64,000 nt of DNA from Owenweeksia sp. (GCA_028285465.1 JANQPD010000052.1:1-64000), one strand, 5' to 3'. Counted from the first letter of the stretch, positions 43,177 through 56,495 are shown. A program made the numbers and translations. Notes: generated by a model not told the origin, from the sequence alone.

Positions 43177-43250
43177 TCTCCCTTAGCTCAGTTGGTTAGA
43201 GCATCTGACTGTTAATCAGAGGGTCCTTGGTTCGAGCCCAAGAGGGAGAG
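43177..43250 (+). tRNA. tRNA-Asn (anticodon GTT)
   Basis: Cloverleaf: acceptor TCTCCCT/AGGGAGA, D-stem GCTC/GAGC, anticodon stem TCTGA/TCAGA with loop CTGTTAA, T-stem CTTGG/CCAAG with TTCGAGC. Confidence 0.96.
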
Positions 43251-43348
43251 CAGTTAAAAACCTCACCGCATGGTGAGGTTTTTTGTTTCGGATAATCTGG
43301 GCGAGAAGTACACCCCGAGCTTAACGAGGGGAGCCCAAGAGGGAGAGC
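43244..43348 (+). repeat. Direct repeat copy A: tRNA-Asn 3' end + terminator + spacer (att-like)
   Basis: Near-identical to 52789-52893: gggagagc[a/t]gttaaaaacctcaccgcatggtg[a/g]ggtttttt...aatctgggcgagaagtacaccccgagcttaacgagg...caagagggagagc. Confidence 0.88.
43256..43286 (+). terminator. Terminator downstream of tRNA-Asn
   Basis: AAAAACCTCACCGCATGGTGAGGTTTTTTG. Confidence 0.8.
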
Positions 43349-43352
43349 TTTT

Positions 43353-43381
43353 AAATGCCAGCCTGTAAGGTTGGCATTTTT
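43353..43381 (+). terminator. Second hairpin/terminator following a tRNA-3'-end-like repeat
   Basis: AAATGCCAGCCTGTAAGGTTGGCATTTTT. Confidence 0.65.
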
Positions 43382-43542
43382 AGTATACCTCTATTGGGTG
43401 AGAAGTCCATCCCGAGCTTGAAGAGGGAAGCCCAAGAGGGAGAGCAGCAGAAATAAAAGTGTAAGTCTTGAGCCTAGATCCGGACCTGCACTTTTTTCTT
43501 TTCCACTGGGCGAGAAGTCTATGCCGCGATTAGACCCGGTAA

Positions 43543-43590
43543 GCTCATCAAGGTTCGCAATCGCGGGGCTCTTTTCGGGTTGCTTCAGAG
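43543..43590 (-). pseudogene. Fragment of conjugation/HerA-VirD4-type ATPase gene (left copy)
   Basis: Reverse strand reads LKQPEKSPAIANLDE, matching LKQAEKSPTIVNLDE of the longer relic at 52614-52790. Confidence 0.6.
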
Positions 43591-43728
43591 ATCATTCTAA
43601 CGAATGTAACTGCTTTACAAGTCACAATGCATTTTAAGTACGTATTTTGAGCGTATGTTGATCACCCTTAGCTCCGTTTCAACACACAATGTTGGTATAG
43701 AGTCGTATGAAGCCTTTAACTTTGCAGC

Positions 43729-46700
43729 ATGTTCAGGTTGGGGGAAAAGATACTTCTTTGGGCGCTCTGTGCGTTTTTTGTATGCCTCCGCGTGCTTCAT
43801 GCACAACCCGTTACCTATACCATTGAGGACGGCTTGCCGAATCGAGATGTGACAAGCACCATAGAAGACCATGAAGGTTTTCTCTGGGTAGCCACGGCCA
43901 ATGGACTTGCGCGCTTTGATGGCAATGAATTCATCCTGTTGGAAAATGTGGGAAAGGATTCGGCCAACCTCCTCAATCCAAATATCACCGCCCTGGCAAA
44001 AACCCCTAAGGGCCAACTTTGTATCGGAACCCTAAAAGGCTTGGCTTTGCTGTCCCCAGACCGGACTAAATTATGGTACCCTATCCCAGACACCAGTCCT
44101 ATCGCAAGAAAACAAATACTATCCATCGCTGTCTTTGACGATCAACACATCGCCTTTGCTACATTTTATGGCTTGTACATCCTGTCAAAAGGAAAGGTCC
44201 AAACCGTGGCGACATTTTCCCCCAAAATTGACGGTCCAAACCGGACGACCCTGCATACCATCGACAGCAATAGAATTTTGGCATTCCATATTAAGAGTCT
44301 TGGAGCGGGAACGGACTTCTTCGTGGTAAACAGATCGGGTGAAGCTCTGCAAAGGAACACAGTCAACGCCTCTTGCCTGGGTGCGACCTTAGGCCTTGAC
44401 AATCGAGTCTATACTGCCTTCGTATTGAGCGGTCCCAATCAGGCAAACAAAATAGCCATAGAGGCTTATTCCCTTGAAGGCGAGCCCCTAGGGCATTGGC
44501 AAATGGAGCCTTCTTTTCCTCTTCCTATCGTAGATCAATTCAGTATCTTCTCTAGGTCAGGACATCTCTGGATCACCCGGTCAGGCACGCCATTAATTCA
44601 ATTCGATCACGAGAAAGGTGACTTTTCCCTTTCCGTTGGAGAAGAGATCGTCAAGAAAATACCACCTGTTACCAGCAATTTTTCCAATATTCATAGCGAC
44701 ACGCATGAAAATCTCTGGGTATCTACAAACGGAGGTTTGATAGGACTTAGCCTGAAACAGGACCGCTTCCACGTCTTAAAGCCCGGTCATTTACCGAAAG
44801 ACGAGGTCTACAGCACCAGGCTTATTTATGCTTTAGACGAAAAGCACCTGTTCATCTCAAAATGGGGTAATTCATTCCTGATGAATGTGGAAGATCAGGA
44901 ATTCACTCCATACAATCCTCTAAAATCAGACGGAACGCCACTCAACATTCGCTGCATACTCCCCTTTGGTAGTGACAGCCTTCTGGTAGGAACGGAGTGG
45001 ACGTCGCTGTTCTGGTTGAAGCCTGGGAGCACTGCACTAGAGCCTGCTCTCATAGACTCTTCTAATCAAATCTACCGGTCCGTAATGAGTCTCGTACGGG
45101 ACAAAGAGGGAAAGGTCTGGGGAGGCGGGATTGGTGGTCTGTTTTGGTTCGACCCTAAGGAAAAGATCATTCATGAGCTGAAAAACCAAGGATTTGAGAT
45201 CGGCCAGGGGGGGGTGTATGAGCTCAGTTATGATCCGGAGCGGAATCTGATCTGGGCGGCTAGCGATAAGGGCCTTGTAAAATTCGAAATAGAAAGTGGT
45301 CAGTTTAAAATATATGATCTGCGCCTGGGTAGTGATGTCATGAGTTCCTCAAAGTCCACATGTCTTATCCTCAAGGAAGACCTGCTTTGGGTGGGTACCT
45401 GGGGAAATGGACTGGTGAGGTTTGATAGATCCACCGAAGAGATCACCCATTTTACCACGCAAAACGGTCTGTGCCACAACCTGATCTACTCCATGCTGGA
45501 AGATGACAGGGGCAGGATCTGGTTGGGCACCGCCAATGGACTGTCAGCCTTTGATCCTTCATCCGAAGACTTTACAAGCTACTTCAAGGAAGACGGGATC
45601 GCCCACAATGAATTCAACACAGGCTCCGTATACAAAGATCCTGAGGGTACTCTTTATATGGGAGGTATCAATGGGATTAGCAGCTTTAAACCTGACCAGG
45701 TCCTTGGGGAAAAGGAACACTCTGAAATACGCCTGACACAAATCATACAACACAACGGAAAGACCAATACAGAGCAAAAAACTACTTTCGACATTCAACA
45801 ACTAAAGGCTTTGACCATCAATCCACATGATCGATACTTCACGGTTTTTTTCTCCCATAAGGACCTCCTCTACCCCTCCAAAACCTATGAATACCAACTT
45901 AAGGGTTTAACGGATAATTGGAGCTTTTTGGGAAGTAGTAAAAAGATCCGCTTTGCCGGCCTTCCAGCCGGAAACTATACCTTATCTATTCGTTCAACGG
46001 ATGACACAAAGGGCGAAAACATATTGAGTCTGCCCATAACGGTATTAGCTCCCTGGTACGAGCGCTGGTGGGCCATAACGCTGTTTACCCTATCGGGCCT
46101 TGCTTTGATCTTCCTGTTTTTTTCCCTCCGGTTCCGGCAGTTAAAAACGGTGAACCAGCTAAAACTGGAACGCTTGAGGGTGGAAAAGCAGGAAGAATTA
46201 GATCAGCTGAAATCGGACTTCTTTGCCAATATCTCGCATGAGTTCAGGACACCGCTTACCCTGATCCTGGGGCCACTGGAAAAAAGGCTAAGCGGGCAAG
46301 CCCCTGAAAGAGATAAACGCGATTTTGGGATGATGCGTCGCAACGCCAACCGCTTGTTGTCGCTCATCAACCAGCTACTGGACCTGAGCAAACTGGATAG
46401 CGGGAAGATGAGCTTCCGTCCGGTTCTCAAAGACCTGGCGGCTCACCTGCGTTTACTTTGCAGCAATTTTGAAAATCAGGCGGCCTTGAGGAACATCGAC
46501 TTCCATTTAACCCTGGAGGAAGAGGAACTATTGACGGCCTATGATGTGGACCAGATGGAAAAGATCATGAACAACCTGCTGTCCAATGCCTTCAAGTTCT
46601 GTGGGGAAGGAGGACGGGTAGAAGTGGTCTGCCGACAACCTGATGCGCAAAGCATCCGCATCAGTGTGGCCAATACGGGAGAAGAGATACCTGCTCACAT

Positions 46701-47727
46701 CTTACCCGATCTTTTCAAGCGGTTTTACCGGCAGGAACAGGACATGGCGCAAGGCACAGGCATCGGGCTGGCCCTGACCAAAGAGTTCGTAGAGCTGCAT
46801 CAAGGGATCATCAAAGCAAGCAGCGAGGGAGGTCTGACCACCTTTACCATCGATTTGCCTGTGCATGTTCAGGAAGGAGCAGATACGTCTGAGACCAGAT
46901 CCTTTGCCGGCCCTTCATCTCCGCTTACCACCTACACAGAAACAGCTTCTCCAAGGGAAGGTGATGATCAACAGAAGAAAGAAGACCTACCCCTGGTATT
47001 GGTGGTAGACGACAATGCCGACCTCAGGGCATTTCTGAGCGATATTTTGACACCGCATTACCAGGTGCTGCAGGCCAAGAACGGTTTAGAAGGCTGGGAT
47101 CAGGCCCGGGAGCGTATACCGGACCTGGTGGTGAGCGACTTGATGATGCCGGGGATGGATGGGAAGCAACTGTGCCATAAGCTCAAGACCGATGCCCTCA
47201 CCAGCCATATCCCGGTGATCCTGCTCACGGCCAAAGCCACTCAGGAGAGTAAATTGGAAGGTTTGGAGAAGGGAGCGGATGATTACCTGATGAAGCCGTT
47301 CAGCGGACCGGAATTATTGATCCGTGTTAAAAACCTCATCCGATTGAGGCAATTGCTGCGGGAAAAATACAGCGGGCAGAAGCTGGTGGAAATCGGACAA
47401 AAGCAGCCTGCCGATCTCGAGGATGAGTTTATGCAAAAGGTGATCAAGGTGATGGAAGCGCAAGCACACGAGGAAGATTTTACCGTGAATGTGCTTTATG
47501 AAAAACTGTTCCTGAGCCCGCGACAAGTACAGCGAAAGCTCAAAGCATTGACGAACCAAACCCCCTCCAACTTCATTCGGAAATACCGCCTCCAAAAAGC
47601 GTATGAAAAGATCTTAAGAAAAGAGGGAACGATCTCAGAAATTGCCACTTCGGTAGGCATATCCAATCTCACCTATTTTGGCAGATCGTTCAAACAAGAA
47701 TTCGGAGTTTCGCCCAGCGAGCTTTGA
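43729..47727 (+). CDS. Hybrid two-component system regulator (HTCS): beta-propeller sensor, Y_Y_Y, histidine kinase, receiver, AraC HTH
   Basis: Signal peptide; Reg_prop repeats (EDHEGFLWVATANGLARFDG, EDDRGRIWLGTANGLSAFDP); FFANISHEFRTPLTLILGPLE; GTGIGLALTKEFVELH; LVVDDNADLRAFL; AraC-type C-terminus. Confidence 0.95.
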   Translation: MFRLGEKILLWALCAFFVCLRVLHAQPVTYTIEDGLPNRDVTSTIEDHEGFLWVATANGLARFDGNEFILLENVGKDSANLLNPNITALAKTPKGQLCIGTLKGLALLSPDRTKLWYPIPDTSPIARKQILSIAVFDDQHIAFATFYGLYILSKGKVQTVATFSPKIDGPNRTTLHTIDSNRILAFHIKSLGAGTDFFVVNRSGEALQRNTVNASCLGATLGLDNRVYTAFVLSGPNQANKIAIEAYSLEGEPLGHWQMEPSFPLPIVDQFSIFSRSGHLWITRSGTPLIQFDHEKGDFSLSVGEEIVKKIPPVTSNFSNIHSDTHENLWVSTNGGLIGLSLKQDRFHVLKPGHLPKDEVYSTRLIYALDEKHLFISKWGNSFLMNVEDQEFTPYNPLKSDGTPLNIRCILPFGSDSLLVGTEWTSLFWLKPGSTALEPALIDSSNQIYRSVMSLVRDKEGKVWGGGIGGLFWFDPKEKIIHELKNQGFEIGQGGVYELSYDPERNLIWAASDKGLVKFEIESGQFKIYDLRLGSDVMSSSKSTCLILKEDLLWVGTWGNGLVRFDRSTEEITHFTTQNGLCHNLIYSMLEDDRGRIWLGTANGLSAFDPSSEDFTSYFKEDGIAHNEFNTGSVYKDPEGTLYMGGINGISSFKPDQVLGEKEHSEIRLTQIIQHNGKTNTEQKTTFDIQQLKALTINPHDRYFTVFFSHKDLLYPSKTYEYQLKGLTDNWSFLGSSKKIRFAGLPAGNYTLSIRSTDDTKGENILSLPITVLAPWYERWWAITLFTLSGLALIFLFFSLRFRQLKTVNQLKLERLRVEKQEELDQLKSDFFANISHEFRTPLTLILGPLEKRLSGQAPERDKRDFGMMRRNANRLLSLINQLLDLSKLDSGKMSFRPVLKDLAAHLRLLCSNFENQAALRNIDFHLTLEEEELLTAYDVDQMEKIMNNLLSNAFKFCGEGGRVEVVCRQPDAQSIRISVANTGEEIPAHILPDLFKRFYRQEQDMAQGTGIGLALTKEFVELHQGIIKASSEGGLTTFTIDLPVHVQEGADTSETRSFAGPSSPLTTYTETASPREGDDQQKKEDLPLVLVVDDNADLRAFLSDILTPHYQVLQAKNGLEGWDQARERIPDLVVSDLMMPGMDGKQLCHKLKTDALTSHIPVILLTAKATQESKLEGLEKGADDYLMKPFSGPELLIRVKNLIRLRQLLREKYSGQKLVEIGQKQPADLEDEFMQKVIKVMEAQAHEEDFTVNVLYEKLFLSPRQVQRKLKALTNQTPSNFIRKYRLQKAYEKILRKEGTISEIATSVGISNLTYFGRSFKQEFGVSPSEL

Positions 47728-48010
47728 TCGGGACCCCTCATTTGTCGCTTCGGGTTGATACAATATCGGTTTAGCGCGAGCTCCGAAACCGCCTGCCTTG
47801 CGACCTTTACCACCGACTTATCTACGAAATTAAAGGTTTTGCGAAAATGAAATGTTCAAAATCAAAACTATGGCATGAAGCAAGGCTTTATTAATAAGTG
47901 CAAGTAAACAGGAACCGATAATTTCGGGTTGATTCCTTCCTTGTTCCGTCAGAACAAAAGACCGCATCAGGCGAAGAACTCCACGCCATTCCAACCCGGG
48001 CGGCAATGTA

Positions 48011-48225
48011 GGGCATTCAAGACCGGCAACGTTGATTAGGATGTTTTGGTTTGGTTTCCGGTCGCCCTCTCCTTTTTTAATCCTGCGCGAACACCACCAA
48101 GATCGTTTCTCTCCTCATGCTCGGATTGTAAGAGCAGTAAATGCTTCTGTCAGAGCTTTTTCATTATCGCGCTTCAATCCTGTGAAACATATCCTGATGC
48201 TTGTCACGGTGTTCCTGAGCACGGT
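48011..48225 (+). pseudogene. Truncated leader/signal-peptide copy of the secreted-protein gene at 48765
   Basis: Strong similarity to 48588-48800 (gggcattcaagaccggcaacg[t/c]tgattagga..., ...cgcttcaatcc[t/c]gtgaaaca[t/c]atcctg[a/g]tgcttgtcacggtgttcc); reads VKHILMLVTVFLSTV then stop. Confidence 0.8.
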
Positions 48226-48238
48226 TTGATACAATCGC

Positions 48239-48400
48239 AGAACCAAACCCCCTCCAATTTCATCCGGAAATACCGCCTCCAAAAAGCGTATGAAAAGATC
48301 TTAAGAAAAGAGGGAACGATCTCAGAAATTGTCGCTTCGGGTTGATGCAATGTCGGTTTAGTGCGAACACCCAAAACCCTTCGTCCGCGTCCTTTGTAGC
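48239..48400 (+). pseudogene. Duplicated, truncated 3' end of an HTCS gene (AraC HTH) with flank
   Basis: 48241-48335 nearly identical to about 47555-47645 (NQTPSNFIRKYRLQKAYEKILRKEGTISEI), then joins sequence matching 47741-47780. Confidence 0.85.
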
Positions 48401-48764
48401 GTAACATTCCTAATCAGTTATGATAATTTATATAAAGACAAAAGCCAAACGGAATCAAAAAAGTAATCTGCTGTTTAAAGTCAATGACCTCTTAGGAGGA
48501 ATTGACCCTTTCCTCCCTATCAGCGTAAGGCGTTTCGCCCACCTGGCGCGAAGCGTTTTGTTTTTTTTCGCCACTGATTCCGGAGAGGGGCATTCAAGAC
48601 CGGCAACGCTGATTAGGAGGAAGTCTTGGTTTAGTTTCCGGTCCCCCTCTCCTTTTTTAATCCTGCGCAACTTCTACCAAGATCGTTCCTCTCCTCGGTA
48701 TTGTGTGGTAGGAGGAGCAGTAAATGCTTTCTTCAGCGCTTTTTCATTATCACGCTTCAATCCC

Positions 48765-51116
48765 GTGAAACACATCCTGGTGCTTATTGCCGTGTTCCAG
48801 CTGGGCAGTTCAGGTGCTATAGGCCAGTGTACAGAAGGAGGGTTTGATGCAATCTCAAACCCACGCTATAACCATGCATGGAACAATGATTTTACTGGTG
48901 GGAGCTCGTGGATTGGTCAGGATTTCACGGCTTGTGCTACCGGGACACTGTCTGAACTCAGGGTGTTTGTTGGCTGGCCCCCTGATATACCACAAACCTT
49001 AAACCTGTATATCTATGAGGGGCCGGATACATCAGGAAATCTGCTGGCTACGGTTCCTCGTAGCAAAATGAATTTTGTGCGAGGAGGTGGCAAACCAGGC
49101 ACTCCATCCGTAATAGACCTCTCTTCAGTAAATCCGAAGGTGAGTGTGGTGGCCGGACAACAGTATACCTTTATGTTTGATACCATTACCGATCTGGCCA
49201 CCAATTTTTATACTAATATGTTATCCTGGAATACTTATGTCGGTGGCAGTATATTCTCCAATGGAGCTCGCGTTCCTGCTGGTAGTATTAATGCACCAGA
49301 TAATGTGGATATTTTATTCGAGATCGACATTGATGTGGCTACCTCTACCTGGACCGGGAGCAGCTGGAACAACGGCACGCCCAACCGGGATGCGAATGCG
49401 ATCATCGCTTCGAGCGGATCACCCGGGGATTTTAAGGCGGTGAACCTGACCATTAACAATGGGGTGACGGTGAACCTGGGTTCCGGAGATACGGCCCTGG
49501 TCTCGGGAACACTCACCAACAACGGCAATGGGTTTAGCGGCTCTGGGGTGATTGACTTTTACCCGGGTGGCGCAAACGCAAAAGTGGCCGAGATAAAAGG
49601 GAACGCCTTCAATTGGGGAGGCATCACCCATATTGACACCGGCTATTCCCTGGCCAGCAGCCATTCCCTGACTACTAACGGACTATTAACCCTTTCGGCT
49701 AGCTCAGCCGGTTCTTACGGGGTATTGCTGGGTAATGGTACCGTTACGGATAATATAAAAGCCGAAGCCTACCTGGACCTGGCCGGAGGCAGCAACGATG
49801 GCCGCTATTACCACCTGGGGGCTCCTTTTAACAATGCTACGCTAAGTGATTTTAATGAAGGGCAAATCATGGTTTCGGCCAACACCCAACAAGGTACGGC
49901 CTGGGAGTGGGATGCTGCCAATGCCTCCTGGGTGCCGGCCGGATCGGGCAACACGTCCAACGACCGGCTGGCGTCAAACGCGGTGATAGGAAAAGGTTAC
50001 GCATTATACGCAGGAAGCAATACCTATGGTACCTTCCTGAGAAAGGACCCCGGGGCACTTACCTTAACCGGAACCCCCATTAATAGTGATGTAACCATCG
50101 CCCTGTCTTACAATGATGGCCAGTCCGGAGGTTCTTTTGCCGGAGGCACCAACACCGCAGCCACCGAAGGCTGGAACTTTTTGGCCAACCCCTACCCCGC
50201 CCAACTGGATTGGGACGTGCAGGACGATCAGCTGCCCAACGGCCTGAACAGTACCGTCTACACCTGGAACGGCGCTAACTATACTTCCTACGTCAACGGG
50301 GCTTCCACTAATACCGGTACCCGCTACATCGCCCCCTTCCAGGGCTTTTTTGTGCAACTGTCTACCAATACAACCCCTAACTTTGCCTTTGATGCGGATG
50401 CGCGTGTTGTATCCGGGCAAACGGTTGAGCTCAACAAAACCACTACTGCAAACCCCCAACTGGACGGGATAAACCTGGCGGTAGCTACCGCCAATGGGGG
50501 AGCGCGGGATGATATTTACGTAGGTTTTGAAGCGCTGGCCACCGTGGGTTATGACCGGGAGTGGGATGCGCAAAAACTCCTCAACCCGGAGGGTGTACCC
50601 AACCTTTCGGTGAGCCTGGGGGGTGAGCTGTACTCCATTTGCCGGGTACCCTATAGCGGCCCCTGGTCTTTCCCGCTTAAACTGGACTATGCCACAGACG
50701 GGGAGGCCATGAACATCACAGTAGATCAAACGAACCTACAGTCTTTCGGGCAGGTAACTTTGGAAGACCTCAAGACCGGCAGTACGCATGACCTTACACT
50801 CGGGGTCTACAACTTTACCTATGACAAGGGCTACGGGCCACAGCGCTTTATCCTGCACTTTGGCAAGGCCAACATAGGCCTGGAGGAAACCGCAGGAGAG
50901 TTGCCCCTCTTTGCCTACGCTACCGAACAGGGGCTAACCGTAGAGTTGGGCACCCTGGAAGATGCCCGCATCAGCGTGTACAACCTGGCGGGTCAGTTGG
51001 TGGCTTCCCGCCAGGCGAGTAAAGGACCAGTGCCCATACCCCTGGAAAAACACGGGGTGTACCTGCTAAGGGTAGAAACCGGCAAACAAACCGAAACCTT
51101 TAAGATAATCCGTTAA
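48765..51116 (+). CDS. Large secreted protein with T9SS type A sorting domain (adhesin-like)
   Basis: Signal peptide from GTG: VKHILVLIAVFQLGSSGAIGQ; Thr/Asn/Gly-rich body; C-term ARISVYNLAGQLVASRQASKGPVPIPLEKHGVYLLRVETGKQTETFKIIR; ORF is open to 48420. Confidence 0.85.
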   Translation: MKHILVLIAVFQLGSSGAIGQCTEGGFDAISNPRYNHAWNNDFTGGSSWIGQDFTACATGTLSELRVFVGWPPDIPQTLNLYIYEGPDTSGNLLATVPRSKMNFVRGGGKPGTPSVIDLSSVNPKVSVVAGQQYTFMFDTITDLATNFYTNMLSWNTYVGGSIFSNGARVPAGSINAPDNVDILFEIDIDVATSTWTGSSWNNGTPNRDANAIIASSGSPGDFKAVNLTINNGVTVNLGSGDTALVSGTLTNNGNGFSGSGVIDFYPGGANAKVAEIKGNAFNWGGITHIDTGYSLASSHSLTTNGLLTLSASSAGSYGVLLGNGTVTDNIKAEAYLDLAGGSNDGRYYHLGAPFNNATLSDFNEGQIMVSANTQQGTAWEWDAANASWVPAGSGNTSNDRLASNAVIGKGYALYAGSNTYGTFLRKDPGALTLTGTPINSDVTIALSYNDGQSGGSFAGGTNTAATEGWNFLANPYPAQLDWDVQDDQLPNGLNSTVYTWNGANYTSYVNGASTNTGTRYIAPFQGFFVQLSTNTTPNFAFDADARVVSGQTVELNKTTTANPQLDGINLAVATANGGARDDIYVGFEALATVGYDREWDAQKLLNPEGVPNLSVSLGGELYSICRVPYSGPWSFPLKLDYATDGEAMNITVDQTNLQSFGQVTLEDLKTGSTHDLTLGVYNFTYDKGYGPQRFILHFGKANIGLEETAGELPLFAYATEQGLTVELGTLEDARISVYNLAGQLVASRQASKGPVPIPLEKHGVYLLRVETGKQTETFKIIR

Positions 51117-51129
51117 AACCACATTTTAC

Positions 51130-51312
51130 ATGAAAAATCTCAAAAGAATAATACCGGTTTCCTGCTTTTTAGTCTTTACGAGCTATGTGGGAAATGCCCA
51201 ACCTCTCAATCCTATGGCTCCCGCTCCCTTTGGTTTTGTGGAACTACTCATTGGGGCGGGAGCTCTGTATGGAAGCAAGAAAGTATATGAGGCACGGGAA
51301 AAAAAAGATTAA
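51130..51312 (+). CDS. Small PID-CTERM-like surface/membrane protein
   Basis: 60 aa: signal peptide MKNLKRIIPVSCFLVFTSYVGNAQ, then PAPFGFVELLIGAGALYGSKKVYEAREKKD; 13 nt after preceding stop. Confidence 0.7.
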   Translation: MKNLKRIIPVSCFLVFTSYVGNAQPLNPMAPAPFGFVELLIGAGALYGSKKVYEAREKKD

Positions 51313-51404
51313 AAATGCCCCGCCTGGGGCAGGGCTTCTCTATGTCCCTAATGATGCTAATTAGAAAAGACAAACACCCTGCTGCCCCCAGTTCGTATTA
51401 AAAC

Positions 51405-51555
51405 GCTCACATTGAGGTGTACAAGCTGGTGGGCCAGCGCGTGGCTTTGGGCAAGGGGAGCATGAAGCTGTAAAGCTTGAGCTGGATGACCACAGGGTCT
51501 TCCAGGCCCGGGTAAACACCCATAAGCAAACAGAGATATTTAAAGTAGTATGCTA
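51405..51555 (+). pseudogene. Orphan T9SS C-terminal sorting-domain remnant
   Basis: IEVYKLVGQRVALGKGSMKL / VKLELDDHRVFQARVNTHKQTEIFKVVC* across a frameshift. Confidence 0.7.
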
Positions 51556-51876
51556 AAACCACAGATACCTGAAGAAACAGAGAATACCAGATCACCAGTG
51601 AGGCATGACATTATGAAAAATACACGTTTGAATAGCTGCTTCTTTACCGGAAACAAAAACAAAAAGTCATCCTATAGATCAGGGAAAATACTGGCCGGGA
51701 TGCGCAAAAGGGGTAAAACCCTTAAACTGGTAAAAGGCCGGGGAGGCCGTTACCTGCTTATTACCAAACGCTACTTTATGGGCATTAAGATCTCCCGCCA
51801 TTCCCAGGCTTACCAAAGCAAAGAAGAAGCGCATCAGGCTTACCTGTATAGCAAGTATAAAATGTTCAGGAGATGA
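51550..51876 (+). CDS. Basic hypothetical protein
   Basis: 108 aa (possibly from MKNTRLNSC at 51613); no recognised domain. Confidence 0.4.
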   Translation: MLKPQIPEETENTRSPVRHDIMKNTRLNSCFFTGNKNKKSSYRSGKILAGMRKRGKTLKLVKGRGGRYLLITKRYFMGIKISRHSQAYQSKEEAHQAYLYSKYKMFRR

Positions 51877-51914
51877 TATTTTTCAATAAACGACACACAC
51901 GTAAACCACCCATT

Positions 51915-52330
51915 ATGTCCCTGGAATTGAACACACTCAAAAGTACCCTCGCGCTATGCACCTTGTGCCTTTAATCCTTCTATGGCCCAAAACGGGCCAC
52001 TTACGTGGTGGCCAACAGCGGCAACTGGACCAATGCCAATACCTGGACGGGGGAACTGTTCTTGGCCATTTGGCCAAAATGCTTGTTCCCCGGGAAAAAC
52101 CCTTACGGTGGATGGTCAGATCGCTACACGCATCAAGATCATCCGGGTACAGGGAAAGCTCTGGTTCTCCATCTCCCAAAATACGTCCCTGATGTCCAGG
52201 ACATGTCTGGTGAGCTGGAGATCGGCACCGCAGCCAACCCCATACCGCAAGGATAAGCTGCACCCTGACGATCATAGACGAGGGCGACATTGTACTGAGC
52301 AGTCCCCAGTTTGAAAAAGGCCTGGTGCTG
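51915..52330 (+). pseudogene. Frameshifted G8-domain secreted-protein remnant
   Basis: Fragments in different frames: VANSGNWTNANTWTG; GKTLTVDGQIATRIKIIRVQGKLWFSISQNTSL; SGELEIGTAANPIPQG; CTLTIIDEGDIVLSSPQFEKGLVLM. Confidence 0.65.
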
Positions 52331-52332
52331 AT

Positions 52333-52611
52333 GGGAAAACGGCCGTACGGGAGTCACGGGTTCAGGTTGGAGAAATTCTGACCTTACGGATAGAAGCCGA
52401 CACCAGCAAATACGGAATGCCGTTCCCGGAAAAGTTTGAAAAGCTCTTATATCAGGATGCGGAAGCCCATGAAAAGTGGGAGGCTTTATCTCGCGGATTA
52501 AAGCAGAGTGTCCTCCATTACATATCCGGTGGCAAACAAGTGCAAACCCGCATTCAGAGATCGATCGACATGGCAGAAAGGATGAAGAAGGATTTGCTCA
52601 GATGGAGGTAA
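52333..52611 (+). pseudogene. 5'-truncated YdeI/OmpD-associated (DUF1905-YdeI) family gene
   Basis: VQVGEILTLRIEADTSKYGMPFPEKFEKLLYQDAEAHEKWEALSRGLKQSVLHYISGGKQVQTRIQRSIDMAERMKK; no N-terminal half. Confidence 0.65.
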
Positions 52612-52613
52612 AT

Positions 52614-52790
52614 CTCATCAAGGTTCACAATCGTGGGGCTCTTTTCGGCTTGCTTCAGAGCCAGTTGTTGGGCTTTTTGAGTTAAATCCCCGTGTATATC
52701 TACCAAACAGAGTCCTCTCCCGTTACGAATGTCCTGGGCTAGAAGATTTTGCAAAAATATGGTTTTTCCGTTCGATAGCGTTATAAAAGG
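52614..52790 (-). pseudogene. Fragment of conjugation/HerA-VirD4-type ATPase gene (right copy)
   Basis: LPFITLSNGKTIFLQNLLAQDIRNGRGLCLVDIHGDLTQKAQQLALKQAEKSPTIVNLDE: degenerate Walker A (GKT) and DxHGDL as in T4SS coupling/HerA-like ATPases. Confidence 0.65.
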
Positions 52791-52893
52791 GAGAGCTGTT
52801 AAAAACCTCACCGCATGGTGGGGTTTTTTTGTTTCGGACAATCTGGGCGAGAAGTACACCCCGAGCTTAACGAGGAAAGCCAAGAGGGAGAGC
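52789..52893 (+). repeat. Direct repeat copy B of tRNA-Asn 3' end + terminator + spacer (att-like)
   Basis: Near-identical to 43244-43348, 9545 bp away, same orientation. Confidence 0.88.
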
Positions 52894-52909
52894 AAACAGA
52901 GAAAAAGAG

Positions 52910-52946
52910 AAAGGTTTTCAACCGTGCCGGTTGGAAGCCTTTTTAT
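52910..52946 (+). terminator. Rho-independent terminator at right island edge
   Basis: AAAGGTTTTCAACCG-tgc-CGGTTGGAAGCCTTTTT. Confidence 0.75.
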
Positions 52947-53077
52947 TTGATACGCTTTTTGAAACAAGCCCGCGTCCTATCTAAAATACACCTCGCTTGT
53001 AAATAGTCATTCAATAAGTATGTGATTTAGAAGTAATTTGTTTTAATTATTATTGAAAATATTCTACACAGATCTAT

Positions 53078-53109
53078 ATTTTATAGTGTTACTATTTTAT
53101 AGTGTTACT
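53078..53109. repeat. Exact 16-bp tandem repeat (x2)
   Basis: ATTTTATAGTGTTACT ATTTTATAGTGTTACT. Confidence 0.9.
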
Positions 53110-53398
53110 CGTTAAGGAAACAGAAAAAGACAAGAGAAGTTAATGGCTTGTTATCCTAGGCTTAAACAATACATTGTATAAAGCTATTAAGCATGTTCCT
53201 GATTAATAGGGACTAAGGATCTTTATTGACAACAAAATTGCATGCAAAAAGGACTTACCTGTTGATTCACTTTAAGTAAAAACAACATTAAGAAATCAAC
53301 AAAACAGGTGCCGGTTGATTAACAAAATTGGTGGAATGAATTTCATGTAGTATTCTTGCGGACATTTATTTCATACATTAACTAAATTAATAACATTT

Positions 53399-54745
53399 AT
53401 GAAACCTACTTTTACCCATTTGATGAAAGCAGCCTTATGCTCCTTTATTCTTGCTTCCTCTGTAAATTTAACCGCTCAATGCGGCTGGCAAATTACCACC
53501 CCTTACAACAACTCAAACCCGGTTGTCAGCCAACATCACAATGCCCTTTTCCATGGAGACAAATACTTCTATATTGACGCAAATACGCAACGCATTGCAA
53601 ATATATTCGGAGGGACATGGATGTATGGCGTATTAGATAATTCATCTCCACAAGTACGCGGCAATACCCGGTTTGAAAAGCATCCAACTAATTCTGACAT
53701 CTATTACGTTGGCACGGATAACAAACTCTATAAAACATATTGGAATGGCTCCACCTGGACCACAACGCTGTTAAACTCCAATGCCACTGAAGTTCGATGG
53801 AGCTCTCAGATCACGCTCGACAAAACCAATAACATTATCTACTACGTGGATATTTATGGTGACTTTAAAGGCATTACCACTTCCGGGTCATTAGTTATTA
53901 TTGCATTCAACATCTGGACAGACCCAAATCATCCGATCTTTTCTTCCGGCTACACGGACCTTTTCTGTGACAATACCGGTCGCGTTTGGTTCAGCGATCA
54001 CCAGAATAGGATTTCTTGCTTGTACAACAATACATCCGGGCAAGGGTGGCCAGGTTGGGCAGTAAGATATTCCGTTCCGCATAACGAACCAACAATGCAG
54101 GGTACCTCGCCAATTATCGTAAATCAACACAACGAGGTGTTCTATGTGAGCTCAAACAACCACCTCATCAGCTTTAACGCCGGTGCACATGGAACTACCA
54201 GTCAATCCTGGAGCCGGATCGGGCATTCTCTTGTAGCCGGAGACCGTTTTGGCATGAGCTGGGGAGATGATAAACTCGTATTCAAGACTACGTCTAACGT
54301 AGTAAGAAATGTATACAGGCTAAGTGGTGTTTGGCAAGACAATCAAATTAACGCGAACACCATAAGCAATCCTTCGCCTATTTCCATTAATAATGGCGAA
54401 ATCCTATATACGGATAACATCAGTGGAACAATCCGTTTACGCGCCTACAGATGGTACAATTGCAAAACGGATCATGTTTCTACTGATGGCTCTGCCTTTG
54501 CTACAGAAGACCGTCAACTTATGTTTTACCCAAACCCGGCAACCGCTTCTGTAACACTTGAGAACCAAAAGCTGGAGAAAATGGAAGTTAGGCTGTTCAG
54601 CTTGACAGGTCAACAGCTTAAGCTAATAAACATTGCACCTGCATCTACTATGAAGGTTGATCTTGACGGTTTGAGAAGTGGAGTGTATCTTGTTAAATGG
54701 GACTCCGATAATGAAGCCCAAACAGGTCGTCTGGTCGTTCAGTAA
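53399..54745 (+). CDS. Secreted propeller-like protein with T9SS type A sorting domain
   Basis: Signal peptide ...CSFILASSVNLTAQCGWQ; repeated HNALFHGDKYFYIDANTQRIANIFG-type motifs; C-term LMFYPNPATASVTLENQKLEKMEVRLFSLTGQQLK...GVYLVKWDSD. Confidence 0.85.
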   Translation: MKPTFTHLMKAALCSFILASSVNLTAQCGWQITTPYNNSNPVVSQHHNALFHGDKYFYIDANTQRIANIFGGTWMYGVLDNSSPQVRGNTRFEKHPTNSDIYYVGTDNKLYKTYWNGSTWTTTLLNSNATEVRWSSQITLDKTNNIIYYVDIYGDFKGITTSGSLVIIAFNIWTDPNHPIFSSGYTDLFCDNTGRVWFSDHQNRISCLYNNTSGQGWPGWAVRYSVPHNEPTMQGTSPIIVNQHNEVFYVSSNNHLISFNAGAHGTTSQSWSRIGHSLVAGDRFGMSWGDDKLVFKTTSNVVRNVYRLSGVWQDNQINANTISNPSPISINNGEILYTDNISGTIRLRAYRWYNCKTDHVSTDGSAFATEDRQLMFYPNPATASVTLENQKLEKMEVRLFSLTGQQLKLINIAPASTMKVDLDGLRSGVYLVKWDSDNEAQTGRLVVQ

Positions 54746-54765
54746 TCTCTTAGTTTTACTTGTTA

Positions 54766-54797
54766 AACCACTCCAAAATATGGAGTGGTTTTTTTGC
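54766..54797 (+). terminator. Rho-independent terminator
   Basis: AAACCACTCCAAAATATGGAGTGGTTTTTTT. Confidence 0.85.
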
Positions 54798-55055
54798 CAC
54801 TAACATCCTGGAAAGAGTTGGCTCGAAATAAACAGGTAGACTATTCAAAGACTCTCCCATTCCCAGGAGTCAGGGGAAGATCAAACTGAAAACGACCAAA
54901 TTCGAATGAACGTTGACTGTGCAAAGCGATTAGTTTCTTACGTTTCCAAAACTAGTCGAGTTAGCAGTAGCGTTTATAGTGATGGTTTGTAATTTAAGAA
55001 AGGTTAAATTTACTCTCCCCGGTACGACTACACACTAAAAAGGAGAGCACTATAA

Positions 55056-55093
55056 GAAAAAGCCCGGTCATTTAGCACATGACCGGCTTTTTT
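55056..55093 (+). terminator. Rho-independent terminator-like hairpin
   Basis: AAAAAGCCCGGTCATTTAGCACATGACCGGCTTTTTTT. Confidence 0.75.
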
Positions 55094-55217
55094 TCTTCAC
55101 CCCCTTTTAAGGCTAGTAGGTGTACCCCTGGTAACTTCTTATCTTTGAGGGATAGGAAAAGTAACGGGCATAGGAGCCTTTCGACTTTTCATTTTTTGTT
55201 TGCTAAAGCCTTCTTGC

Positions 55218-56495
55218 ATGGCGTTTCACTTTTCGCGTTTTATATCCGGGGCAGACCGGGCCGACCTGGAACAACGCATTTTTAATACGGCCGCTTTCTT
55301 TGTCGGGCTGATCTCCCTGCTCGCATTTTTGTTGTCGTTGGTTGCCGTGCACACGCTTTCCCGGACTTTTATCCTCGGCTTTGCCTCCCTCCTTTTTTGC
55401 GGCATTTTTTATGCCTCCCGTTTTAAAAGGGAGTTTTCGATCAGCAGTACCTTATTTATTTTCAGCACCCTGCTCTTTGCCAATTACCTCTGGCTTTACG
55501 AGCCCGGCTTCCGCTCCGCCACCAACTACCTTTATCTCTTCCTCCTGTTTTTAATGCTTACGATAAAACCTCTAAAAGCACATTTTGCCTATACCCTCCT
55601 ATTCATCTTTAACCTGGTGCTGGTCGATTTTTTGATCCGGTATTTCCCGGTTTTCGAAACGGATTTTCCCATCCCGGCAAATCAACACTACATCTTGACT
55701 TTCTTCCTGGTAGCCTTTTCCATTGTAGGTTCCTACTTTAAAAAGAATTACGAACGCGAGCGGGCCATTACCATTGACAGCCACCGGAAACTGGCCAATC
55801 TGAATCAGGCGCTGGAAAACCGGAACAAACACCTGGTCGGTTTTGCACATATGGTAGCCCATAACCTACGCAGCCCTGTGGCGGGCATGAAAATGCTGCT
55901 CAACCTGTACGACCTCAACAAAGAGCCGGCAGAACGGGAAGACCTGATGCTGCATCTTAAGGAGGGGGCTTATCAGCTTTTTGAGATGGTGGAAGACCTT
56001 TCTACGGTAATGAAAGACTATACCCAGCTTGACCAGGACCCACAAGAAGTTATTCTTGAAGAAGCCCTGCAAAAAGCCAAAGTAGCCCTGAGCGGACAGA
56101 TCCGTGAACGCAAGGCTTTGATCAATGCGCACTTTGAAGTAGAAACCGTTACGTATATAGAGGTATACCTGGAAAGCATTTTCCTGAACCTGTTGAGCAA
56201 TGCCCTTAAATATGCACACCCGGACAGGAACCCCAAAATAGAGGTCCGCAGCTACCTGGAGGGGCACAAAGTAATGCTGTGCTTCAAAGACAACGGTTTA
56301 GGGATAGATACTGAGCGGTTTGAGAACCAGCTGTTTAAAATGTACAAGATCTTTCATCCCGAAGCACACCAGGACAGCAAAGGCATTGGCCTTTTTCTCA
56401 TTAAAAACCAGGTAGAGATGTTGGGAGGAAAAATATGGATAGAGAGCACACCGGGCGAGGGCAGTGCCTTTTTCATCGAGCTGTACCGGGTTTAA
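55218..56495 (+). CDS. Membrane sensor histidine kinase
   Basis: Multiple TMs; FAHMVAHNLRSPVAGMKMLLNL H-box; NLLSNALKYAHPDRNPKIEV; DSKGIGLFLIKNQVEMLGGKIWIESTPGEGSAF. Confidence 0.92.
   Translation: MAFHFSRFISGADRADLEQRIFNTAAFFVGLISLLAFLLSLVAVHTLSRTFILGFASLLFCGIFYASRFKREFSISSTLFIFSTLLFANYLWLYEPGFRSATNYLYLFLLFLMLTIKPLKAHFAYTLLFIFNLVLVDFLIRYFPVFETDFPIPANQHYILTFFLVAFSIVGSYFKKNYERERAITIDSHRKLANLNQALENRNKHLVGFAHMVAHNLRSPVAGMKMLLNLYDLNKEPAEREDLMLHLKEGAYQLFEMVEDLSTVMKDYTQLDQDPQEVILEEALQKAKVALSGQIRERKALINAHFEVETVTYIEVYLESIFLNLLSNALKYAHPDRNPKIEVRSYLEGHKVMLCFKDNGLGIDTERFENQLFKMYKIFHPEAHQDSKGIGLFLIKNQVEMLGGKIWIESTPGEGSAFFIELYRV

Follow-up and report, generated by a model that had tools for sequence, protein, structure and literature searches.

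A tRNA-tail unit repeated behind tRNA-Asn in Owenweeksia sp.

The direct repeat on either side of an insertion next to a tRNA-Asn gene of Owenweeksia sp. is probably one copy of a tandemly repeated unit that carries the tRNA tail, and the array of these units is best read as a hot spot for recombination and insertion, not as the attachment (att) pair of one integrative element. The gene lies in a 64,000-nucleotide stretch (GCA_028285465.1, JANQPD010000052.1:1-64000), referred to hereafter as the window, and the insertion is a cassette coding for a hybrid two-component system (HTCS) regulator and a surface protein of the type IX secretion system (T9SS). A sequence-only reading of the window had reported a direct repeat associated with tRNA-Asn and proposed that its copies are the attL and attR of an integrative island. 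The repeat and its orientation were as reported, alignment of 43240-43348 with 52785-52893 giving a same-strand direct repeat of 93% identity over 109 bp (E=6.8e-39), and the association with tRNA-Asn(gtt) was borne out (Table 1). Two features were missed in that reading: the tandem units behind the tRNA and an inner repeat of 50 bp.

Anatomy of the array

The unit is present in three head-to-tail copies after tRNA-Asn, at 43240, 43337 and 43435 with a spacing of 97 nt, and in a fourth past the cassette. It is made up of a palindrome (GGGCGAGAAGTTTATCCTGAGC..GTCGAAGGGA), a terminator and 17 nt of the tRNA 3' end, from the T-loop onward. Along the strand, the 17-nt tRNA-Asn tail (AGCCCAAGAGGGAGAGC) is followed by a terminator, ~10-15 nt, the palindrome (GGGCGAGAAGTNCAYCCCGAGC..GAGGGG) and the next tail. 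The core pattern was matched four times in the window, with 0.00 matches expected (100 shuffles). Outside the tail, units 1 and 2 agree at only ~70% and have different terminators; the tails of both match tRNA-Asn at 17/17 positions. The units of the window itself retain only part of the T-stem. The 109-bp repeat is confined, within its own genome, to the window's contig. An Rfam scan returned no family except tRNA, and no RtT match; one sub-threshold antisense match was dismissed.

The unit recurs behind tRNAs of many isotypes

Sequence comparison showed such units behind many tRNA isotypes in Bacteroidota, with a tail that matches the tRNA followed. The survey scan took one genome per species from public genomes, and its figures are lower bounds, drawn from the 135 matches listed on 116 stretches. 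A same-strand tRNA lay upstream of the motif in at least 108 of these matches, mostly without an island. Eleven of the remainder run off the end of the available DNA and 16 are neither tRNA-linked nor cut; about 10 of those 16 were found by reading to come from distant taxa and to be without the unit's other parts. The isotypes among the matches listed were Asn, Thr, Gln, Lys, Met, Ala, Leu, Asp, Pro and Gly; His and Trp were added from other searches, and the largest arrays, of at least five copies, stand behind tRNA-Trp. The tail agreed with that of its own tRNA exactly (17/17) in 61, and with at most two mismatches in 83, among the 108 tRNA-linked matches listed. In a first set of 69 distinct units, 45 had an exact tail and none had the tail of another isotype; none was found in shuffles. 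Copies behind tRNA-Met in the window's genome (one further unit, G000 C90:61236, L042), tRNA-His in genome G003 and tRNA-Asn in genome G009 each carry the tail of the local tRNA.

The core AGTTTAYCCYGAGC gave 0-6 matches per genome in ten genomes, and 25 of the 28 matches were tRNA-linked units. The three off tRNAs lack the GCGAGA prefix, so that all bona fide copies in the ten genomes (25/25) are tRNA-linked. A dispersed repeat unrelated to tRNAs, which the sequence-only reading had named as telling against its island, is not what was found: the unit is dispersed over species yet strictly tied to tRNAs.

The nucleotides before the palindrome correspond to the T-stem 5' strand of the unit's own tRNA, with no match further upstream. 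At the two positions past the invariant GG, the T-stem match exceeds all 200 permutations. The same nucleotides pair with their own tail at 3.93 of 8 positions, as compared with 3.25 of 8 for permuted tails (0/200 permutations as good). Because of this match and this pairing, the unit is read as a T-arm plus acceptor 3' strand in which the palindrome occupies the T-loop. The palindrome has the consensus GGGCGAGAAGTTTATCC(T)GAGC..AGTCGAAGGG, and the insert is mostly 34 nt. The anatomy of the units and their linkage to tRNAs are well supported.

Arrays vary in length between related genomes. Behind tRNA-Leu in one genus, one terminator stands in G013, against three 3' ends with two palindromes in G218; at tRNA-His, G184 and G003 differ in like manner. 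Successive units of most arrays have identical tails and differ in their spacers and terminators, the latter unrelated in many cases. Unrelated terminators imply that the tails are held by conversion or selection, or that units arrive with their own terminator.

Some further observations concern the distribution of the unit and of similar structures. The same unit, with the same palindrome, was seen behind tRNA-Pro and tRNA-Gly in Candidatus Peregrinibacteria (L099, L134, L193). In L018, L022 and L062/L066, copies of tRNA-Asn have the anticodon arm (in L018 other loops too) replaced by palindromes such as TCCCGCACTTGCGGGA. In L213 (G218 C7, ~1596-1700), generic palindromes (CCTGCCTGTCGGCAG.., CCTGCCTACCGTCAGGCAGG) lie in the D-arm region of an incomplete tRNA-Leu copy, which precedes the real tRNA-Leu on its upstream side. 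The integrase matches close to units, at tRNA-Thr loci, are genes of ~300 aa resembling XerC, which was read as conserved synteny.

The cassette lies inside a gene fragment within the array

The cassette is flanked by the inner direct repeat (43541-43590 and 52611-52660; 50 bp, 92%). Its edges, at 43590 and 52611, fall inside a gene fragment and away from the tRNA 3' end. Joining 43451-43590 to 52661-52815 produces a single open frame over the junction, and because the frame reads through the joined flanks the fragment probably predates the cassette. In tblastn, its ATPase-like stretch matched genes on plasmids whose products carry the annotation type IV secretion system (T4SS) DNA-binding domain protein (57% over 28 aa, E=6e-4). 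This one method weakly suggests a T4SS coupling-type gene; there was no match in Pfam, NCBIfam or PDB. The simplest and likely order of events is the array, then the gene fragment, then the cassette with its 50-bp duplication.

The adjacency of PfkB and tRNA-Asn is conserved across the family. The empty tRNA-Asn site that the sequence-only reading proposed to look for was found in two relatives: a homolog of the window's kinase at 55200 lies ~260 bp after tRNA-Asn in G003, and a homolog of its regulator at 56492 lies ~50 bp after it in G015. Other genes fill the interval in G013 (8.6 kb) and G009 (~6 kb). Since the interval is empty in two relatives and differently filled in two more, the site is variable and the window's content is lineage-specific; the interval is accessory, as had been claimed.

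Table 1. Features of the tRNA-Asn array, the gene fragment and the cassette (window coordinates)
Feature	Position	Strand	Remarks
tRNA-Asn(gtt)	43177..43251	+	Source of the repeated 3' end; ARAGORN, Rfam RF00005
Unit 1	43252..43348	+	Terminator 1 ~43256-43284; T-loop palindrome X1 43299-43331; tRNA-Asn 3' end copy 43332-43348, 17/17
Unit 2	43349..43445	+	Differing terminator ~43353-43381; palindrome X2 43396-43428; tRNA-Asn 3' end copy 43429-43445, 17/17
Unit 3, damaged	43446..43531	+	Terminator 3 ~43457-43502; beginning of palindrome X3 43508-43531
T4SS-coupling-protein-like gene fragment, left piece	43500..43590	-	92% repeat; frame open over joined flanks
Inserted HTCS/T9SS cassette	43591..52610	+	9.0 kb
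HTCS hybrid two-component regulator	43729..47727	+	1332 aa; domains intact
Second copy of HTCS 3' end	48240..48340	+	96% to 47553-47653; second leader copy follows; tandem duplication remnant
T9SS type A secreted protein	48420..51116	+	898-aa open reading frame (ORF); likely start GTG 48765; Por_Secre_tail TIGR04183
60-aa ORF	51130..51312	+	Weak PID-CTERM match; present in both paralogous loci
108-aa ORF	51550..51876	+	No family match; weak relative in C47 cassette
G8-domain-like secreted protein remnant	51982..52314	+	E=0.044, under curated cut-off
YdeI/OmpD-associated (OmdA) protein, C-terminal remnant	52417..52611	+	
T4SS-coupling-protein-like gene fragment, right piece	52611..52805	-	
Unit 4	52785..52893	+	tRNA-Asn 3' end copy (its end) 52785-52796; unit-1-like terminator ~52801-52829; palindrome 52845-52877; 3' end copy 52878-52893, one base deleted
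Terminator after last 3' end copy	52908..52947	+	Sequence

Contents and composition of the cassette

The content agreed with the earlier description: an intact HTCS, a T9SS type A secreted protein, a weak PID-CTERM-like ORF and several remnants. The HTCS has Reg_prop, Y_Y_Y, HisKA, HATPase_c, Response_reg and HTH_18 domains. Two loci in the same genome hold relatives. At C55 the HTCS is 61% identical and the T9SS protein 75-78% at the amino acid and 82% at the nucleotide level; at C47 the HTCS is 56% identical. The T9SS gene and its paralog are far more alike than the HTCS and its own, which makes it probable that the cassette is a mosaic. A shift in GC or codon usage, which the sequence-only reading had suggested looking for, was not found over the cassette (GC is 0.492 there and 0.477 in the window as a whole; codon usage native).

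The leader ahead of the T9SS gene is duplicated (48011-48215 and 48588-48798), and part of it (76% over 59 bp) is found again close to the beginning of a large ORF that follows the C55 HTCS. The duplicated leader is possibly an HTCS-controlled 5' region. Outside the repeats, a gene at 53399-54745 codes for a further T9SS protein; GC is 0.40 over 52900-55200, and the codon-usage correlation of the gene is 0.32, as compared with 0.60-0.88 for the flank genes tested. On account of low GC and outlying codon usage, this gene is a stronger foreign-DNA candidate than the cassette.

Origin of the array and of the insertion

On the reading that we favour, the tRNA 3' part would have been duplicated in tandem, with a REP-like palindrome (REP, repetitive extragenic palindrome) replacing the T-loop. 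Arrays would grow and shrink through recombination between units, and gene conversion or recent copying would keep the tails in agreement with the tRNA. The array would have held a T4SS coupling-type gene fragment between units 3 and 4, which the 9-kb surface-protein cassette, a relative of others in the chromosome, would have entered, leaving the 50-bp duplication. Because the array repeats can still recombine in principle, loss of the block as a 9.5-kb circle would also be possible in principle. For the copying of tails and the placing of palindromes, tandem duplication with recombination and conversion is our best guess.

Several points weigh against this account. Identical tails beside differing spacers and terminators are more than tandem duplication and neutral drift can provide; gene conversion or selection must be added, or import of units with their own terminators. 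The recurrence of one palindrome in T-loops throughout the phylum, and in Peregrinibacteria, is not explained. No transposase was seen at the cassette edges, and 50 bp is long for the target duplication of a transposition; recombination between older repeats could have produced it instead. The order of events is taken from the junction alone, the relatives compared being of other genera. A gene-less homing unit is a doubtful alternative: it would target tRNA T-loops across Bacteroidota, bring its own tRNA 3' end and terminator, restore the tRNA and push the old tail and terminator downstream; units could stack in tandem, and foreign DNA would then be captured between them.

It is unlikely that the window holds the remnant of a tRNA-Asn-targeted integrative element that an integrase inserted with the HTCS/T9SS cargo, with the 105-bp repeats as attL and attR, decayed mobility genes and a piece of a T4SS coupling gene left behind. 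As in genomic islands and integrative and conjugative elements integrated at tRNAs, accessory DNA lies beside a tRNA 3' end, the direct repeats include that end, pieces of a T4SS-like gene fragment stand at both edges and the interval is empty in relatives. That tRNA 3' ends serve real integrative islands in this order is shown by a control in Aequorivita lipolytica (L228): an 18.8-kb island (87353-106157) lies between tRNA-Gln and a unit, and has an integrase of 421 aa and ORFs read as a type I restriction-modification set. There, however, the att consists of a 15-bp stretch of the tRNA 3' end, the edges are at the tRNA and the pre-existing unit was left outside attR; the unit has no tRNA nearby because the island sits between them. 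The window differs from this true integration in repeat length, edge position and integrase: the repeat is not island-specific, the cassette edges are off the tRNA, and no PF00589 integrase is present on the contig, the six matches of the genome all being on other contigs, in line with the earlier statement that no intact integrase is visible. Moreover, units are tandem and island-free at many tRNAs, the cargo has paralogs in its own genome and native composition, and the T4SS fragment, reading through the joined flanks, is probably older than the cassette. Of the proposed island, the empty site and the lineage-specific insertion are supported; the att pair, the integrase and edges at the tRNA are not. 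An att pair of one element was rejected as the principal explanation on account of the tandem units, the missing integrase and the island-free units.

The closest layout known to us is the tyrTV operon of Escherichia coli K-12, in which we read three copies of the tRNA-Tyr 3' end (16/17 nt), 178 nt apart. Both systems have tandem tRNA 3' ends from the T-loop on and a palindromic block in place of the T-loop, with the T-stem kept; in tyrTV, AAGGTTCG, which covers the T-stem 5' strand and the beginning of the T-loop, is followed by a palindrome-rich block in the T-loop and then by the tRNA-Tyr tail. They differ in that the tyrTV palindrome is unrelated in sequence, its repeat is 178 nt long against ~65-118 nt here, there is no terminator per unit and the tpr ORF lies inside. 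The tyrTV case is one locus with one tRNA, as against many isotypes and species here. Published work connects the rtT RNA of this operon with bacterial interspersed mosaic elements (PMC2965389) and with amino acid limitation (PMC4986893). The layout is thus known from one locus, and the spread, the conserved palindrome and the tracking of isotype look new; no prior description of the tRNA-tail units was found within the limited literature searched. The units might be functional RNA genes of the rtT kind, giving a stable RNA by read-through from the tRNA, with their own terminators and a tail that competes for the tRNA 5' acceptor strand. The conserved palindrome, tails that stay fixed to the tRNA while spacers vary, the terminators of many units and the annotation of a small RNA, RttR, in tyrTV of the same layout (PMC4986893) would fit. 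Yet copy number ranges from 0 to 5, the strict pattern was matched in 8 of 298 genomes with many having none, a terminator separates the tRNA from most first units, and Rfam recognized the tRNA only. We give this reading a low probability.

Even less probable is insertion of the palindrome into tRNA T-loops in single-stranded DNA by a Y1 transposase of the RAYT (REP-associated tyrosine transposase) type. Like REPs and REPINs (REP doublets forming hairpins) with their RAYTs (PMC3116915, PMC3733652, PMC6006769), the palindrome is short (within the 20-40 nt of REPs), imperfect, extragenic and repeated. Its place in a hairpin loop is fixed, and generic palindromes likewise occur in loops of the other degenerate tRNA copies (L018, L022, L062, L213). 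Unlike REPs, it is present in at most six copies per genome tested, the bona fide ones all tRNA-linked. The window's genome (G000, 99.97% complete) has no PF01797 match, and by our count a Y1 transposase is present in 12 of 20 genomes with units and in 11 of 20 without, which is no enrichment. Generic REP was likewise rejected as a sufficient label, the element being low-copy, tRNA-only and without a Y1 transposase.

It is routine to take repeated tRNA ends for attachment sites, and island finders depend on them. In the arrays described here, tRNA ends are copied and multiplied with no island involved; in Bacteroidota, therefore, the duplication of a tRNA end does not by itself say much for an integrative element. 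With the survey, the lone tyrT locus of E. coli becomes one case of a recurrent architecture whose palindrome is conserved and whose tail goes with the tRNA isotype, and this makes the origin of the unit testable by strain comparison.

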